From the NCBI GenBank assembly GCA_019722365.1, contig JADFUC010000954.1, forward strand, positions 2,542,001 through 2,606,000: a stretch of 64,000 bases of DNA, given 5' to 3'. The position numbers were made by a program, and so were the translations under genes. This DNA comes from Lithospermum erythrorhizon. Its lineage: Eukaryota; Streptophyta; Magnoliopsida; Boraginales; Boraginaceae. This document shows positions 33,600-60,280 of the stretch, one piece after another; position 1 is the stretch's first letter; every line of letters starts with the position of its first letter. A model generated the notes under the pieces. That model worked only from the letters and a program-made list of their open reading frames with translations. It made no database searches and was not told the origin of the DNA.

Positions 33600-36438
33600 A
33601 TGTCTGGACCCTTTGATCTTTTGGCAAGGCCTTGTGAGTATTTATTGTTAATGAAGTTTGTTGTTTGATGTTTTGATTTTGATTCGATTTTGTTTAGCAA
33701 GTTCATGCATATGTATAATCTTGAAGTTGATTGTGGTTTTTTAGGTAGTGTTGGCTAGGGACTTGAAAGTATATTATTGGTTTTATCTATCTATTATGAA
33801 AGTCTGATTGTTTGATCTTTGATGGAGGGGTTGTTACTATATTTAGTTACTACTTAGATGCTCCTTTCTTGATAAATTGTTTGGTAATTATTAAGTTCTA
33901 CAAGATTTAAGAAAGCTTCAGTGTATAGGTGTGAAATATGACAATTATGGTTTGCTTCTATATTCATTGATGAAATAAGACATGTTTTTGACATTGCAAG
34001 ATTAGACAAGTACAGTAATATTACTAACTCCCCTAAACGATCGTCTGATCAAAACTAACAAACTTTTCGGAATTAATTGACACACATCGTTGATTTGAAT
34101 AAAATTGCCATGTTAATAATAAAGTAGGTTGAACATACTATATTTAATATATTTTCACACAAAAATATACAATATAGTAACAGATTACTAAGATCAAAAT
34201 TAAAAAAAATCAACTCATAAAAATTCAAAGATGGACGATCTTTTAGGGATGGAGGGAGTCATAAAACTGGAGGATATTAAAACTAGTCATCAGTAAATGC
34301 ATAAATAAGATTTGATTTCATTTTGTTGTCTCGAAATCATGTAGGCTGTGATGGCGTACGAGATGAGAAGGTCAACAGAGATAATGAAATCGTGGTGGAT
34401 GAAAGAAGGGAAAAAGCTGGACTATTGAAGAAGAGAACGGTAAATTTGACCACTAAAGTTCGTCATTCCCTAAAGAAGATAGGTAGTAGTAGAAAGCCTC
34501 ACAATGTTATTGATGTTGGTGGCTCTTCTATGACAAATGAGGATGATCGTGTTGCTGAGGAGATGAAGGTTGTGGGTGTCTTTAGGGAAGCTCTGCTCTT
34601 GCATAAATTGCTCCCTCCTCGGCATGATAATTATAATATGATGTTGAGGTATTCCTGTCTACTACTTATTAAAGTCTTTTATTGCAAACCTGTAATATTG
34701 AGAAATAGGCAGAGCCTGTAGTCTGCTTCTGGTCAGCTATAGCTTTTCCTTATTGAGCCAAGTTCTCAAACCTTCATAAAAAATATATGAGTATCGACAA
34801 AAACTCATAGTATTTGAGTATAAAATCAACTCAATAGTCTAATTGGTAAGATGGTAAGCTAGAGTTCAGGCCTTACTGCCCTAATCCAGAATCCATTTTT
34901 CATTCATTTGGGCCGGGGCCAAGGTGGGATGGATTTGTTCACTTTGTTGTGTGTTGTATACTCATCGGTGGTGGCAAAACTCTACCACAGATGGCCTATA
35001 ACAAAGCTATTGATTATTTGCTTTCGCATGCATCATACTATGAGCTATAACACAAAAATGTCCGATGTCAAAACCTTTGAAGTGTGTTTTTATCTTAAGA
35101 GAGATCAAATCTGTATATTGACCTTCAAAAAAAATTATTCATTTCAGGTTTTTGAAGGCGAGAAAGTATGATATTGAAAAAGCAAAGATAATGTGGGCTA
35201 ACATGCTTCAATGGAGGCAGGAGTTCGGAGCTGACACAATTGTTGAGGTGATTATTATTGCCTTCTCTTGCCAAGCCTCTTAGTAACTAGTCAGACATTA
35301 TTCTGGCAACTGTTTAGAACTCATTCGCCTTATGTGTTTTGTGGTCAAGAAGTTTAATAATTGACTGGTTACAATGTGTATTTTTGGTCCAGTGATCCCT
35401 AACATAGTATCTTTTTGGCAGGACCTTGAATTTGGTGAGTTGAATGATGTAATTAAATACTACCCTCAGGGTTATCACGGAGTTGATAAGCAGGGAAAAC
35501 CAATTTACATAGAATTGTTAGGAAAGATTGACATAGACAATCTAATGGAAGTGACTACTCTGAATCGGTACGTGAAGTACCATGTTCAAGAGTTTGAAAA
35601 ATCTATTTCTATTAGGTTACCTGCCTGCTCCATAACTGCTAAGAGACGCATAGATACAAGCACAACAATTTTAGATGTTCAAGGAGTGGTAATATGTAAA
35701 ACTAACTGTGCTTAATTATTTTGTCCTTTTACTCAATTGAAGATGAGTACATCGAGAAGACTCATGGGAACTGTTATGTTTGTTTCAGGGTTTAAAACAT
35801 CTAACCAAACCAGTAAGAGAAGTTATTATGAAGTTGCAGAAGATTGATAGCGACAACTACCCTGAAGTATATCTTCAGATGTTATTTCATTTCATTTCTA
35901 TCTTAAATTTCAGCAATACCAATATCTATAGTTTTGGTGTATATTACTAATGTAATTGTTTCTGATTATCGATTACAGACCCTTGGCCGGATGTTTATAA
36001 TAAATGCTGGTCCAGGATTTAGGCTTGTTTGGAATACAGTCAAGACATTTCTTGACCCTGAAACAACCTCTAAGATTCATGTATGTTTATGACCATTTTG
36101 CATTTCTTTTAAATATCAGACGTGCTACGATATTCTGTTTCAATAAACAAACTTACTTGCAGGTTCTTGGAGACAAATATCGAAGTACATTGCTTGACAT
36201 TATCGATTCTAGGTAATTATTCTTAATTCTGAACGAATATCCAGTTTATTGGCCATTTTCATTTCAAACAAAATACATTCTTCTGTCCAGCGAGTTACCA
36301 GATTTTTTAGGTGGAAGCTGCAACTGTGCCCTGGAAGGTGGTTGTTTGAGGTCGGATAAGGGGCCATGGAAAGATGAAAATGTCTTGAAGATGATATGTC
36401 AGAGTAGCATGTTGATATTGAATAGTACGGAGTATTAG
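33600..36438 (+). CDS. SEC14-like phosphatidylinositol/phosphatidylcholine transfer protein, short form
   Basis: Exons: 33600-33633, 34345-34648, 35148-35247, 35422-35688, 35789-35866, 35979-36080, 36163-36212 and 36291-36438; 1083 nt, 360 residues. The start ATG gives [11 protein letters not shown], as in plant SFH proteins (MSG..). A basic [19 protein letters not shown] region is followed by the CRAL-TRIO N region ([20 protein letters not shown]) and the SEC14 lipid-binding domain: [68 protein letters not shown] and [18 protein letters not shown]. Family members exchange phosphoinositides and phosphatidylcholine between membranes. The usual coiled-coil/nodulin-like C-terminus of about 200 residues is absent: the frame stops at 36436 soon after [11 protein letters not shown] lost donor at 36391 may explain this (see findings). 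A MITE lies in intron 1. The RPL31 gene converges on it from the opposite strand. Confidence 0.88.
34025..34260. mobile_element. MITE in SEC14-like intron 1
   Basis: Left ACTCCCCTAAACGATCGTCT and right GGACGATCTTTTAGGGATGG then AGGGAGTC are inverted partners. The interior has TGATTTGAATAAAATTGCCA and GATCAAAATTAAAAAAAATC. One of the best-preserved copies of the family; about 85 bp upstream of the exon 2 acceptor. Confidence 0.8.
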
Positions 36439-50949: not shown

Positions 50950-50979
50950 TTATATATATATAATAACATATATATATAA

Positions 50980-51044
<65 letters not shown>
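50950..51044. repeat. TA-rich microsatellite, about 95 bp
   Basis: Nearly pure TA dinucleotides with two interruptions (TAATAACATA and TAACTC). Such tracts are unstable and hard to assemble. Confidence 0.95.
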
Positions 51045-55469: not shown

Positions 55470-58400
55470 ATGGGTACAGTCACAGATTCTCCTTCCTTCA
55501 AGGTCATGCAATATTTTCCAAAACCAATCAAAAAAATTAGTATTAATAGCACATTTTACAATTATTTTTTTGGAATTTTAGTACAAATTATCAAAAATTG
55601 TAAAACAAATAGCATCATTCATATTTTCATTACAAAAATATCATCAATATTCATGTAGATACATATGATATAGATGGATATTGTAGTTACAGAGAGTGAT
55701 TTTTTTTTTTTTGCCAAAAAATGTTATTTTTTATAAATTTTGCAACAAAAAATGCTAAAAGATGTCATTTTTTATTTTTTATTTTGGAAATTTCCCATTT
55801 TTATGCTACTAGAACTAGTTTATTTCAATTATATAATGTTGGGCATGGTATATTTTTTATGCAGATAATATTGGGTTCATCTTCTATTGCTCGTAGACAA
55901 ATATTGGAGGAAATGGGATATGAATTCACTTTGATGGTATTGTTTTTTTTTTTTGGATTTCTTGATAAGTTCTGCAATTTGAATTTCTGTTATTCCCTAT
56001 GTCCCATAAAGATTGTCCAGTTTGATTTTATGTTATCAAAACTCAAAAGTAACATCCTATGTAGCATTAATAGACAAGCGTAAGTTTGGTTTGAATCAAA
56101 ATTATCGTGTTAATTATAAAGTACATTAAAAATACTAGCATTAGATATACTCCTCCATCTCTAAAAGATCGACTGGTTCATAATTTTCAAGGTTGAGTGT
56201 TAAGTTTTGAACTCAAATAGTTTTGCATATGTTGTATAATATTTTGTAAAACAAATATATCAAAATATATTTTTTCAATATATTTTACTAATATCATGAT
56301 AATTTTAATCTAAGTCTAAAGTTGTGTGCATCAATTAAGACCACAAAGCTTGTTAATGTTGACAATTGAAAAATAAACTGGACGATATTTTAGGGATGGA
56401 GGTAGTATTTTCCGATTATTATACAATATATATAAATATTTGTGGTTAAAATTTACAAAGATTATCAAGGTTCAAAAAGGACAATATGTTTTGGATGGAA
56501 GGACTAGTTAATTTACTTTGGGTGTTGGTAATGTAGTCTGCAGATATAGATGAGAAAGTGATTCGAAAGGAGAAACCAGAGGAGTTGGTTATGGCTCTTG
56601 CTGAAGCAAAGGTATATTCTTCTTGATATTGGAACAGTTGTTGTATATGTGTATCCTAGTACTTTGTGGACAACTATGCAATTGTCGAGGTGCATTGTCT
56701 TCTGTTTTAGTGTGAGAAATGAATATAATAAACTAGTTCTTGAGTCGTATCCTGCAAAACTAGAAAGAGGAAGGGGAATTAAGCTTCTTAATCACATGTA
56801 TGAGCTAATTCCTAGTCTTTCAAATTAGTTGAGAATTCCGTATAATTGTTTGGTACAATTTTGGTTGCATCTCAGGCAGATGCTATCATATCGAAACTTC
56901 AAAATACTGAAAATGGAGAGAAGGAGGACAACGAACAAACAATTCTTATTGCAGCCGATACAGTATGTCCTGTTTCATGCTTAATGAAATACAAGCAAAT
57001 CATTTTTCAAGAATACACCCGCAATGCCATCTATATGATGATGATACAATTGTAGTTCCAACACCAGAGTAGGAATTTGAGTTTATAGGGTAGATCTGTA
57101 AGATAATGGTAGCCAAATAAATAGAACTTCATGTTTCATGTTCCTGTAAACGTGGAACAAGAGTTATCTTTCTTTCTTCTTTTCTTCATTTTTTTATGTT
57201 TTGTTCGGCAGAACAAAAAAAAAAATCTGTTCAATGGTAGGATATTTCACAATGATGCTTTTCTACCAACATTTCTCCCCCAGAAGCATGTGAATTTGGG
57301 AAAATTGAGATGGGAACACCAGCATGTTATGTTCTAAAACATCGACATTCCCCTATGCCTCTTAAAAGTCTCCCACCTAAGCGGGGTAGGGGGGAGGGGT
57401 GCGTATAGCAAACAGCCTTGCGGTGAAACAAGGAGGGTTGTTTTACGAGTTGACCCAAGGGGCCAGAAATTGAAGTGCAAATGCATGTTATTTTTTACAT
57501 GCTACCTTTTGTCAGAAATTTTATTCACATAGTATTTTAACAAAGTATGTTTGAAATGAGGGTAAAAGTTTGATAAATAAGAAGAGATGGGTCACTATTT
57601 GTGAACAATTCCAAATGATGAAGAGGGTTACTCAAATTAAAATGGAGTACACATGAACTTGTGTCGTAGAAATTCTACTTAGCTGAATTCTGTCCAGCAT
57701 GGTTAGGACTTGAGGGAGTTGATAGGAAATCATGAACATTCAATGGAGGTTCTGGTTAGCTATTACGTACATGTTTAGGTCTGCACTCTATTAAGGACTT
57801 GTATTATAGACATAGTATATGAAAGTTGGTGCATCTCTTTGTAAAAACTTGGAGTTAGAAATCCAATGCCTTAGTATCATTATGATGTTAAATTTTCATC
57901 TTGAATTAAAGATCACATGTTTATTGATTTGTGCGTTACTTCGTGTGATGTATTATCTAGAGCCTAGGCAGACACTTATCTTTAATTGGTAAAACATTTC
58001 ATTAGGCTGAAGCCATCATATCAAGGCTCCCTGGTTCTGAACAAACGACGGATGCTGAGCCAACACTACTAATTACTTGTGACCAAGTATAATTCACTTC
58101 TATCTCTCTTATGTTTGTTTATCTAGTCATAACATTCCATGTAAACGAATATGTTCAGTTCATTTGTTTTAAACCTATCTGGTGTAAAGAACCTATACAT
58201 TTAATTTATTCACAAGTTCAGAATGAACTGGGTGAAGGCACCTCCTAAGGAAACCTTACTTGCTGTAATGGAGGATGTGTATCTTAAAATGATAAGCATA
58301 GTTTTATGTGCTGGTGTTCTGAAATTCTTACTAGTTCATTTGCCATGTTCAATCAGACATTGATCTTTCTTTAAAAAAAGGTTATTTCTCTGCTGCTGCA

Positions 58401-60280
58401 ATTTTGAGCTGTATCATCTCTATCTCTGTATGATGAGATAGTAGATACTATGATATCTATAATACATCATCTAGAAGTCCTTAGTTCACAGAGATGAAAG
58501 GCATGTATCCTTTTTGTATCCTCCTGACATATAGATGGCATTGTCGTGGTTGAAGATATCGCATACAAGGAATTTTGAGAGCTTTTCTGCTATCCCTTTG
58601 TGTTCAATAGTTCAACTAATTTACTGATGTATTGAAATGATCTGGAGGTTGTGGTCTACAAAGGTATGATCAGGGAAAAGCCTTCAAGCAAACAAGAAGC
58701 TAGGCAGTTCCTCAAAGGTTTGCTGATTTATAAGACTAAACCTTAAGAAGCAGAAAAATTATCATATATTGGTTCTGAGGTTCTTCCGTTCAAATTATCT
58801 AACAACTTTAGCTTGCAGATTACTCTAATGGGTTTGCAGCAACAGTAAGTTCTGTTCTTGTTACAAATCTGAAGACAAAATCCAGAAGAGGGGAATGGGA
58901 CAAAGTGGAGGTATTTCAAGTCTTCTAATACTCAATTCCTTTATGAAGGACTTATATTACACAATTCATCTGTATAGGACTCCATATTATTGTTTATGGC
59001 CTGATCCAAACAGAGGTATGCTGATTCAATATAGACCCTTTCCAGACATAGGCAGATCTAGTACTTGAGCTCTCTTGTGCTCTATGTTTTCCGTTAGTGA
59101 TGTAGCCAGGATTTAATATTATGATGTCAACAATTTACAGTAAAAAATTAAAATTTAAATAAGAATCCCAAATCTTTGTGGTTGACATGGCACACCCCTA
59201 GCTCCGCCTATGTTTCCTGATTGTTTTGTCAATCTCTCTGAAATTACTTAATGATGCGATCAAATTGTTATATATTTCTTCTCTATATTAACAACATACA
59301 ATGCCGCTATTACATCAAGATGAATCTTTATTGTTTGATGAGTGTCCACGTGTCCAACAAATTCAGGGTTTAATTTCCAGTTCCGAAATCATAATTGAAC
59401 CTTTTTTTGTTTCCCTTCCCTTTATTTAGTTTGAACGGTTGTATTTTTGAGAATTGCAACTCAAGTTTTAATGGCCCTGCAGATACATTTCCAAGAGATC
59501 CCTGAGCAAGTTATAGATAATCTGGTAGAGACTATTTTACTTGCAGTTGTGGTTTCTTAGTCATATTTTGAACTGCAACTGTCAAATTTTTTTCAATTTT
59601 TTGTAGATTGCGGAAGGCCTGATACTAAATGTGGCTGGAGGACTGATAATTGAGCATCCTTTGATATTACCACATGTCAAAAAAGTGGTGAGCATCTCTA
59701 AGAACATGTGGAAATATGTAGTTGATCATAGTTCATGAACTTGTTTTCATGAAGGTTATCAAAATCTGGTTGATCCAAAGGATCTCCTTCTCTGAACTGT
59801 TCTCTCATCTCTCACGCAATAGTCAAGTCCATATACTAGTTCATGTAATTGAGTAAAATAGACGGCCGATAATCCAAACATTTGTTGATTTTCACCCGAT
59901 TTCCATGTCATGTGGAGTCGAATGTTTTATATTCTGTAACTCTTGAATATAATGAAAAATTCAAAATGGCTCATTGCGCTATTTTTGCTTATTATCTATT
60001 GTGAAGTAGTATAATAGTGTTTGCACAAATACTCTTGGGTCAATTAAAAAATGAACTCCTTGTTATTATAAAGGTAAGGTTGAGTACTATCCGACCCCTC
60101 CCCTCCTATCCTATTTACGTGGGAGGCAATGAGGCATATTGATGTTATTTATTTCGAAATTTGCAGAACATTATAAAGTATAAACTGATTTTTGTTTCTT
60201 TTTGTCAGGACGGGGCAACTGATAGTGTTATGGGACTACCAAAAGATCTTACAGAAAGATTGATAAGGGAGGTCGTCTAG
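55470..60280 (+). CDS. Maf/HAM1-like nucleotide pyrophosphatase with two alternative exon 4 copies
   Basis: Exons: 55470-55502, 55865-55936, 56537-56611, then 56876-56962 (4a) and/or 58006-58086 (4b), 58648-58717, 58819-58910, 59483-59524, 59607-59687 and 60209-60280. With 4a alone the product is 207 residues, with 4b alone 205, the usual length. Maf proteins hydrolyse non-canonical or modified nucleoside triphosphates (such as m7GTP, dTTP, UTP or pseudo-UTP) to monophosphates, cleaning the nucleotide pool. Landmarks: the phosphate-binding IILGSSSIARRQILEEMGYE, SADIDEKVIRKEKPEELVMA, LAEAK, the catalytic Asp in AADT (4a) or TCDQ (4b), VVVYKGMIREKPSS, TVSSVLVTNLKT, EIPEQVIDNLIAEG, NVAGGLIIEHPLI and GATDSVMGLPKDLTERL. 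The protein has no obvious signal peptide and is likely cytosolic. All splice phases agree. Introns carry SINE and MITE copies. Both exons 4 in one mRNA would also keep frame. Confidence 0.94.
55995..56125. mobile_element. MITE 5' half in Maf intron 2
   Basis: TTATTCCCTATGTCCCATAA then AGATTGTCCAGTTTGATTTT. The internal GTTTGAATCAAAATTATCGT word is present but the right terminus is missing. Confidence 0.55.
56148..56407. mobile_element. MITE in Maf intron 2
   Basis: TACTCCTCCATCTCTAAAAG and GACGATATTTTAGGGATGGA then GGTAGTA are the inverted ends. The ATAATTTTAATCTAAGTCTA and AATTGAAAAATAAACTGG words are typical of the family. Confidence 0.78.
56876..56962 (+). other. Maf alternative exon 4a (AADT version)
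   Basis: 29 codons, phase 0 at both ends, between ATCTCAG and GTATGT. Encodes ADAIISKLQNTENG.. ending TILIAADT. The Asp-Thr at its end forms the canonical catalytic D-T-V of many bacterial Maf proteins once joined to VVVY of exon 5. Confidence 0.85.
57362..57415 (-). mobile_element. SINE fragment, inverted, between Maf exons 4a and 4b
   Basis: CTCCCACCTAAGCGGGGTAG then GGTGCGTATAGCAAACAGCC is the reverse complement of the SINE block seen at 4812. The downstream GGAGGGTTGTTTTACGAGTT may belong to the same insertion. Confidence 0.6.
58006..58086 (+). other. Maf alternative exon 4b (TCDQ version)
   Basis: 27 codons, phase 0 at both ends, between TTCATTAG and GTATAA. Encodes AEAIISRLPGSEQTTD.. 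ending TLLITCDQ. It replaces the AADT of exon 4a at the same position of the protein; the LLIT.DQVVVY form also occurs in plant homologues I remember. Confidence 0.85.
60070..60150 (+). mobile_element. SINE fragment in the last Maf intron
   Basis: AAGGTAAGGTTGAGTACTAT, CCGACCCCTCCCCTCC, then ACGTGGGAGGCAATGAGGCA and a TTGATGTTATTT tail. Same family as 4812, same orientation as the gene, 60 bp upstream of the exon 9 acceptor. Confidence 0.6.

Follow-up and report, generated by a model that had tools for sequence, protein, structure and literature searches.

In the Maf proteins, the catalytic Asp, which in the gene described here stands at the end of two alternative exons, is the proposed general base (PMC3899018). 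The residue next to it, Thr or Gln, sits at the bottom of the base pocket and is one of three that separate the YhdE and YceF subfamilies, with specificity triplets of W-Q-E in YceF (residue 1 being aromatic) and R-T-Q in YhdE (PMC3899018). A preliminary description of this DNA had drawn the same distinction, D-T in one subfamily and D-Q in the other beside the catalytic base, and the published account bears it out. Few descriptions exist of internal alternative exon pairs in plants, according to a 2014 statement on Arabidopsis (PMC3923563). No description of a Maf exon pair was found in the full-text literature searched, which covers few subscription journals; a single paper connected a Maf-like protein with alternative splicing, and in its accessible text the protein merely appears in a gene list (PMC7397149).

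The 64-kb stretch of DNA analysed here (the window) contains a gene that is predicted to encode a eudicot Maf nucleotide pyrophosphatase. The Escherichia coli enzymes YceF and YhdE have their fold, their catalytic Asp and Lys residues and the Thr/Gln position in common with it; however, E. coli keeps Thr and Gln in two genes, whereas the window has one gene with alternative exons, whose protein body has Ala and Glu as specificity residues 1 and 3 (PMC3899018). The closest solved structure by sequence is Maf1 of Trypanosoma brucei (PDB 2AMH; 3.3e-21 with the first alternative exon, 4a, and 6e-24 with the second, 4b), which has Gln and Glu in its pocket and is described as a single Gln form (PMC3899018).

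Our main reading, to which we give a probability of about 0.7, is that this is a Maf gene with a tandem-duplicated exon 4 that offers a choice between D-T and D-Q, mainly by the inclusion or skipping of 4b. Each copy would supply the last part of a helix, then a variable linker, and then a strand with the catalytic Asp at its end, followed by Thr (4a) or Gln (4b), so that 4a alone would yield a D-T enzyme and 4b alone a D-Q enzyme. With both exons included, the helix would come from 4a, and the roughly 30 residues in between, the D-T among them, would be extruded as a loop; D-Q would then occupy the active site, because only 4b can supply the strand that continues into exon 5. What splicing decides would then chiefly be the fate of 4b, its inclusion giving the Gln type and its skipping the Thr type.

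Exon structure of the Maf gene

The gene lies on the plus strand at 55470-60280 and has nine exon positions, of which exon 4 exists in two alternative copies (window coordinates):

55470..55502, plus strand: exon 1 with the start codon (open frame, GT donor)
55865..55936, plus strand: exon 2, GSSSIARR motif (splice-joined open frame)
56537..56611, plus strand: exon 3, DIDE motif, LAEAK with the conserved Lys at its end (splice-joined open frame)
56876..56962, plus strand: exon 4a, Thr-type alternative, ILIAADT at its end (AG/GT borders, phase 0/0)
58006..58086, plus strand: exon 4b, Gln-type alternative, LLITCDQ at its end (AG/GT borders, phase 0/0)
58648..58717, plus strand: exon 5, VVVYKG at its start, REKP inside (splice-joined open frame)
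58819..58910, plus strand: exon 6 (splice-joined open frame)
59483..59524, plus strand: exon 7 (splice-joined open frame)
59607..59687, plus strand: exon 8, AGGLIIEHP, its Glu aligning to Glu154 of YceF (splice-joined open frame and alignment)
60209..60280, plus strand: exon 9, VMGLP motif and stop codon (splice-joined open frame)

All internal borders are AG and GT. The two copies of exon 4 are homologous neighbours of equal phase and similar length (87 nt for 4a and 81 nt for 4b), and their position, full splice sites and phase of 0/0, as first proposed in the preliminary description, are confirmed from the sequence. So is its claim that either copy joins the LAEAK end of exon 3 in frame to the VVVYKG start of exon 5: all four exon combinations stay open to the stop at 60280 and give proteins of 207 (4a), 205 (4b), 234 (both) and 178 (neither) amino acids. 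That the two segments are homologous yet diverged also held, as their alignment scores 49 against a mean of −13.6, a standard deviation of 7.7 and a maximum of 23 in shuffles (n = 2000). The both-exon window protein is identical to the Lithospermum erythrorhizon protein LIER_16188 (P0003) at 232 of 234 positions, which assigns the window to this species or to a close relative. Each version exceeds the gathering score of the Pfam Maf family (PF02545; cut-off 27), with 149.8 (4a), 149.8 (4b) and 149.3 (both) bits, and the S-R-E-K-D-K signature is complete (SSSIARR, DIDE, AEAK, AADT or TCDQ, and REKP).

Elsewhere in the window, a plus-strand open reading frame of 113 amino acids (35374-35715) has a weak CRAL_TRIO match (23.1 bits compared with a cut-off of 22.6), and a (TA)n run of about 47 units occupies 50951-51043.

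Conservation and age of the exon pair

Three homologue searches returned 1663, 1464 and 1244 matches, and the best 120 of each comprised 275 different proteins. The segment that follows the conserved Lys (LAEAK) and precedes exon 5 (VVV) was read in each, with T, Q or I allowed after the Asp, and all 275 could be classed: among these matches listed, 101 have two segments, 86 have D-T only, 86 have D-Q only and 2 have D-I, which adds a third state to the Thr/Gln position. In all 101 two-segment proteins listed, D-T comes first and D-Q second; the orders QT, TT and QQ do not occur in the 275. No further kind of segment is hidden in this set, because the parser read every row and no single-segment row listed is longer than 30 residues. 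Recurrence in 101 of the 275 homologues listed means that the pair is not due to chance and, together with the open frames, rules out a chance reading frame or pseudo-exon.

The pair, first described from the window alone, is present in basal as well as core eudicots among the matches listed, with two-segment rows from Macleaya, Papaver, Stephania, Aquilegia, Thalictrum and Macadamia in addition to the core eudicots. The identity of the residue after the Asp is fixed for each copy: counting distinct segments in two-exon relatives listed, the first has D-T in 77 of 77 and the second D-Q in 74 of 74. Of the 275 matches listed, Lys stands before the segment in 275, DIDE is present in 274 and EKP in 275. 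Across 54 both-exon rows, exons 4a and 4b have mean pairwise identities of 0.58 and 0.63, compared with 0.72-0.85 for exons 2, 3 and 5-9; the linkers are the least alike (0.39 in 4a and 0.50 in 4b) and account for most of the lower identity, and the last eight residues reach 0.73 in 4a and 0.82 in 4b. Some Rosaceae and Vitis rows (P0045, P0052, P0067, P0195 and P0258) carry extra residues between the two segments (LMETSQ, LMETSSQ or LTEKSQ), which probably reflect an upstream acceptor of 4b.

Two segments were found in none of the 15 named magnoliid and monocot rows among the matches listed; 12 of these are D-Q, 2 are D-T (both Anthurium) and 1 is D-I. In a tree built without exon 4 (59 rows), the eudicot two-exon gene groups with single-isoform rows of the same gene, the Proteales rows fall outside it, followed by magnoliids and monocots, and a D-T paralogue of Vitis, Camellia and Actinidia is set apart (99/94). 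An exon-only tree (28 columns) did not separate an origin of 4a from 4b from an origin from the paralogue. Two patterns taken from the plant alignment found 31 prokaryotic relatives (L001-L031), in which the residue after the Asp is Gln in 20, Leu in 6, Thr in 4 and Gly in 1. On the simplest reading of these distributions, the pair probably arose when a single D-Q exon was duplicated on the eudicot stem, the first copy then changing to Thr, a timing that we infer.

Several observations concern other Maf genes. Single-segment D-T rows apart from the two-exon gene come from Vitis, Camellia, Actinidia and Anthurium (P0231, P0240, P0251, P0256, P0257, P0236 and P0241). The prokaryotic relatives are up to 46% identical and 23 of the 31 are labelled as candidate phyla (Parcubacteria, Uhrbacteria, Doudnabacteria and others); one, L004, has Glu in the column of the catalytic Asp. 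Persea has adjacent locus numbers Pa09g2053 (D-Q) and Pa09g2054 (D-I), and a Cinnamomum model fuses two Maf units (P0004, P0201, P0203, P0204 and P0205), which suggests tandem Maf gene copies in Lauraceae.

The Thr/Gln position and substrate specificity

In alignments, specificity residues 1 and 3 of the window protein are Ala and Glu, respectively. Residue 1 is Ala in 234 of the 275 relatives listed, and the Glu of residue 3, in exon 8, is invariant in two chosen alignments (56 of the 101 both-exon rows and 54 of the 174 other rows). The exon swap therefore alters one of the three specificity residues and leaves the other two constant, the Glu being YceF-like. Given this constant Ala and Glu, the 4b form reads A-Q-E, near T. 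brucei Maf1 and YceF, and the 4a form is a hybrid, A-T-E; the former has two of the three YceF residues, with Ala at residue 1, and the latter one of the three YhdE residues. Swapping the exon copy also reverses the order of PDB matches that follow T. brucei Maf1: Bacillus subtilis Maf (1.8e-13) precedes YceF (1.2e-11) for the 4a form, and YceF (4.7e-14) precedes B. subtilis Maf (1.7e-12) for the 4b form. It is plausible that Thr versus Gln tunes nucleotide preference. Among the prokaryotic rows with Glu at residue 3 (n = 19), Thr follows the Asp in 1.

A more far-reaching version of our reading, which we hold tentatively and at somewhat less than even odds, is that the pair is a specificity switch kept since the eudicot stem. 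The T and Q pyrophosphatases would have different modified-nucleotide substrates, the both-exon mRNA would be a third working state, made Gln type by the order of the exons, and the core Lamiales would have shifted to inclusion or skipping of 4b alone.

It is conceivable, if rather doubtful, that the exon choice is real and the substrate unchanged, so that what is tuned is the affinity, stability or regulation of one activity. The constancy of residues 1 and 3 described above would fit this, as would the Q70A mutant of YceF, which retained its catalytic efficiency. With the published columns taken as KM, kcat and kcat/KM, the values are 32.8, 1.2 and 3.7e4 for YceF and 173.3, 5.0 and 2.9e4 for Q70A (PMC3899018). 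Affinity is thus lower in the mutant (32.8 to 173.3) and efficiency hardly changed (3.7e4 to 2.9e4), which counts against a strong effect of the Thr/Gln swap. However, a residue at the bottom of the base pocket that is fixed as Thr in one exon and Gln in the other among the matches listed argues for a difference in substrate, as does the D-T of the separate paralogue in the Vitis, Camellia and Actinidia rows.

Isoforms, splicing and known systems

To count isoforms, a locus was defined as a species plus a contig, which would merge two genes sharing one contig; 255 rows fell into 169 loci, and 6 'lgn' rows and 14 rows without a contig were left out. Among the matches listed, a single class is present at most loci (both exons at 54, Q only at 35, T only at 28 and D-I at 1), and the others are mixed (all three forms at 21, T and Q at 16, T and both at 11, and Q and both at 3). 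T-only and Q-only proteins thus occur together at 37 of the 169 loci, 16 of them with no both-exon form among the matches listed, and in 37 of 37 the rest of the protein is identical, which excludes two paralogous genes as their source. Compared with the both-exon form of their own locus, segments agree in 70 of 71 cases. Judging by their names, many of these rows are predicted isoforms, and most isoforms are database predictions. Contigs of 948-1119 bases, which look spliced because each carries the whole open reading frame, lend some independent support to the T form (P0088), the Q form (P0133, 10 contigs) and the both-exon form (P0094, P0102 and P0169).

The preliminary description had proposed mutually exclusive splicing. 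Its single-exon T and Q isoforms are borne out by the 37 loci with identical bodies, and we infer that the window plant would make both; strict exclusion is unsupported, since relatives depart from one exon per mRNA, with both-exon forms at 89 of the 169 loci (matches listed), and the both-exon message is in frame in the window gene.

In two genera the forms listed lie on different contigs, as if duplicate genes shared out the T and Q isoforms among the matches listed: Camellia (T-only P0092, P0108 and P0111; Q-only P0138, P0148, P0149 and P0173; bodies identical at 145-151 of 176 positions) and Cucurbita (T-only P0059, P0060, P0077 and P0083; Q-only P0266 and P0267; 156-161 of 176).

We modelled the both-exon protein P0003 using AlphaFold with 56 both-exon rows (mean pLDDT 81.6). 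Exon 3 and the first part of 4a form a helix (residues 49-74), residues 74-105 have a pLDDT below 50, with D88-T89 inside this low-confidence loop, and a strand (108-120) contributed by the last part of 4b together with exon 5 places D115-Q116 in the active site. A model of P0005, a 4a-only relative, has a mean pLDDT of 86.3, and 2AMH is the best structural match of both. On these models, the both-exon form would fold with D-Q active and D-T looped out, and the switch may therefore be the inclusion or skipping of 4b. In the both-exon rows of core Lamiales (P0012, P0019, P0055, P0093, P0097, P0100, P0104, P0165 and P0187), 4b no longer begins with AEAII but with sequences such as VENVQ, and PTLLITCDQ is retained in 9 of 9 (matches listed). 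The 17 core Lamiales rows listed comprise 9 both-exon, 8 T-only and 0 Q-only, the zero being subject to the possibility that degenerate Q-only rows score below the matches listed. The Oleaceae (8 rows among the matches listed) retain the AEAI start and include one Q-only row. The core Lamiales pattern fits a working both-exon protein with its helix from 4a and its active site from 4b, and points to 4b inclusion as the switch.

The intron between 4a and 4b is 1043 nt and no exon combination shifts the frame; neither frame nor intron size enforces a choice between the exons. By eye, no donor of the gene resembles a U12 site. The flanking introns contain a perfect 16-nt inverted repeat:

57022..57037, plus strand: left arm, in the intron after 4a (candidate loop-out helix)
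58528..58543, plus strand: right arm, in the intron before exon 5 (candidate loop-out helix)

As a lead only, this candidate helix would leave 4b in a loop and place the donor of 4a close to exon 5; an RNA-helix model has been described for mutually exclusive exons (PMC6071210). Random pairs of the two introns reach a 16-nt inverted repeat in 2 of 2000 cases, with three intron pairs examined, and the motif has no third copy in the window at up to 3 mismatches. Whole-intron RNA duplex energies are ordinary compared with shuffles (z = −1.2, −0.7 and +0.8), and an Rfam scan of the 64-kb window gave no match at gathering scores.

We consider it unlikely that exactly one of 4a and 4b enters each working mRNA and that the both-exon form is an annotation default or mere noise. 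Such exclusion would suit the 37 loci with both single-exon forms, 16 of them lacking the both-exon form among the matches listed, as well as the intact 4b of the window and a candidate helix that could loop it out; however, the both-exon form is also carried by three of the short spliced contigs as well as by 89 loci, its message is in frame, the 4a-4b intron measures 1043 nt, and core Lamiales retain the end of 4b without any Q-only row among the matches listed. Less probable still is that joint inclusion is normal, with the extra segment a tolerated insertion and the single-exon forms minor skipping or prediction artefacts, since the 54 loci with the both-exon form alone, including the nearest relative, Lithospermum, are set against 51 of 169 that pair a single-exon form with another form (matches listed), single-exon short contigs (P0088 and P0133) and a D-T in 4a that is invariant in all 77 distinct exons listed, needless for a looped-out insertion.

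Choice between D-T and D-Q mainly by 4b inclusion or skipping is thus the reading that we prefer. Among the matches listed the pair spans poppies to nightshades, and what it alters is the immediate neighbour of an enzyme's catalytic base. Should both forms prove functional, the pair would give direct access to three questions: why two Maf activities are maintained in plants, which modified nucleotides are cleared by each, and how the balance between them is set by splicing.

Rice NAL22 is a plant Maf-like protein that its authors likewise placed in neither known subfamily; its phenotype concerns leaf width and cell division, and the accessible text makes no mention of an alternative exon pair (PMC9962836). 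Isoforms of human ACSL6 are also reported to switch a substrate-gating segment, the fatty acid gate-domain, in a different, animal enzyme (PMC1543647). By analogy, the nearest plant parallel found is FLM/MAF1 (MADS AFFECTING FLOWERING1) of Arabidopsis, also a gene in which an alternative internal exon pair exchanges a short protein segment, although it encodes a transcription factor unrelated to Maf enzymes despite its name (PMC3266260). The 3' exon of FLM/MAF1 is described only in the MAF1-3 relatives, whereas the Maf pair extends across eudicot orders and alters an active site (PMC3266260).
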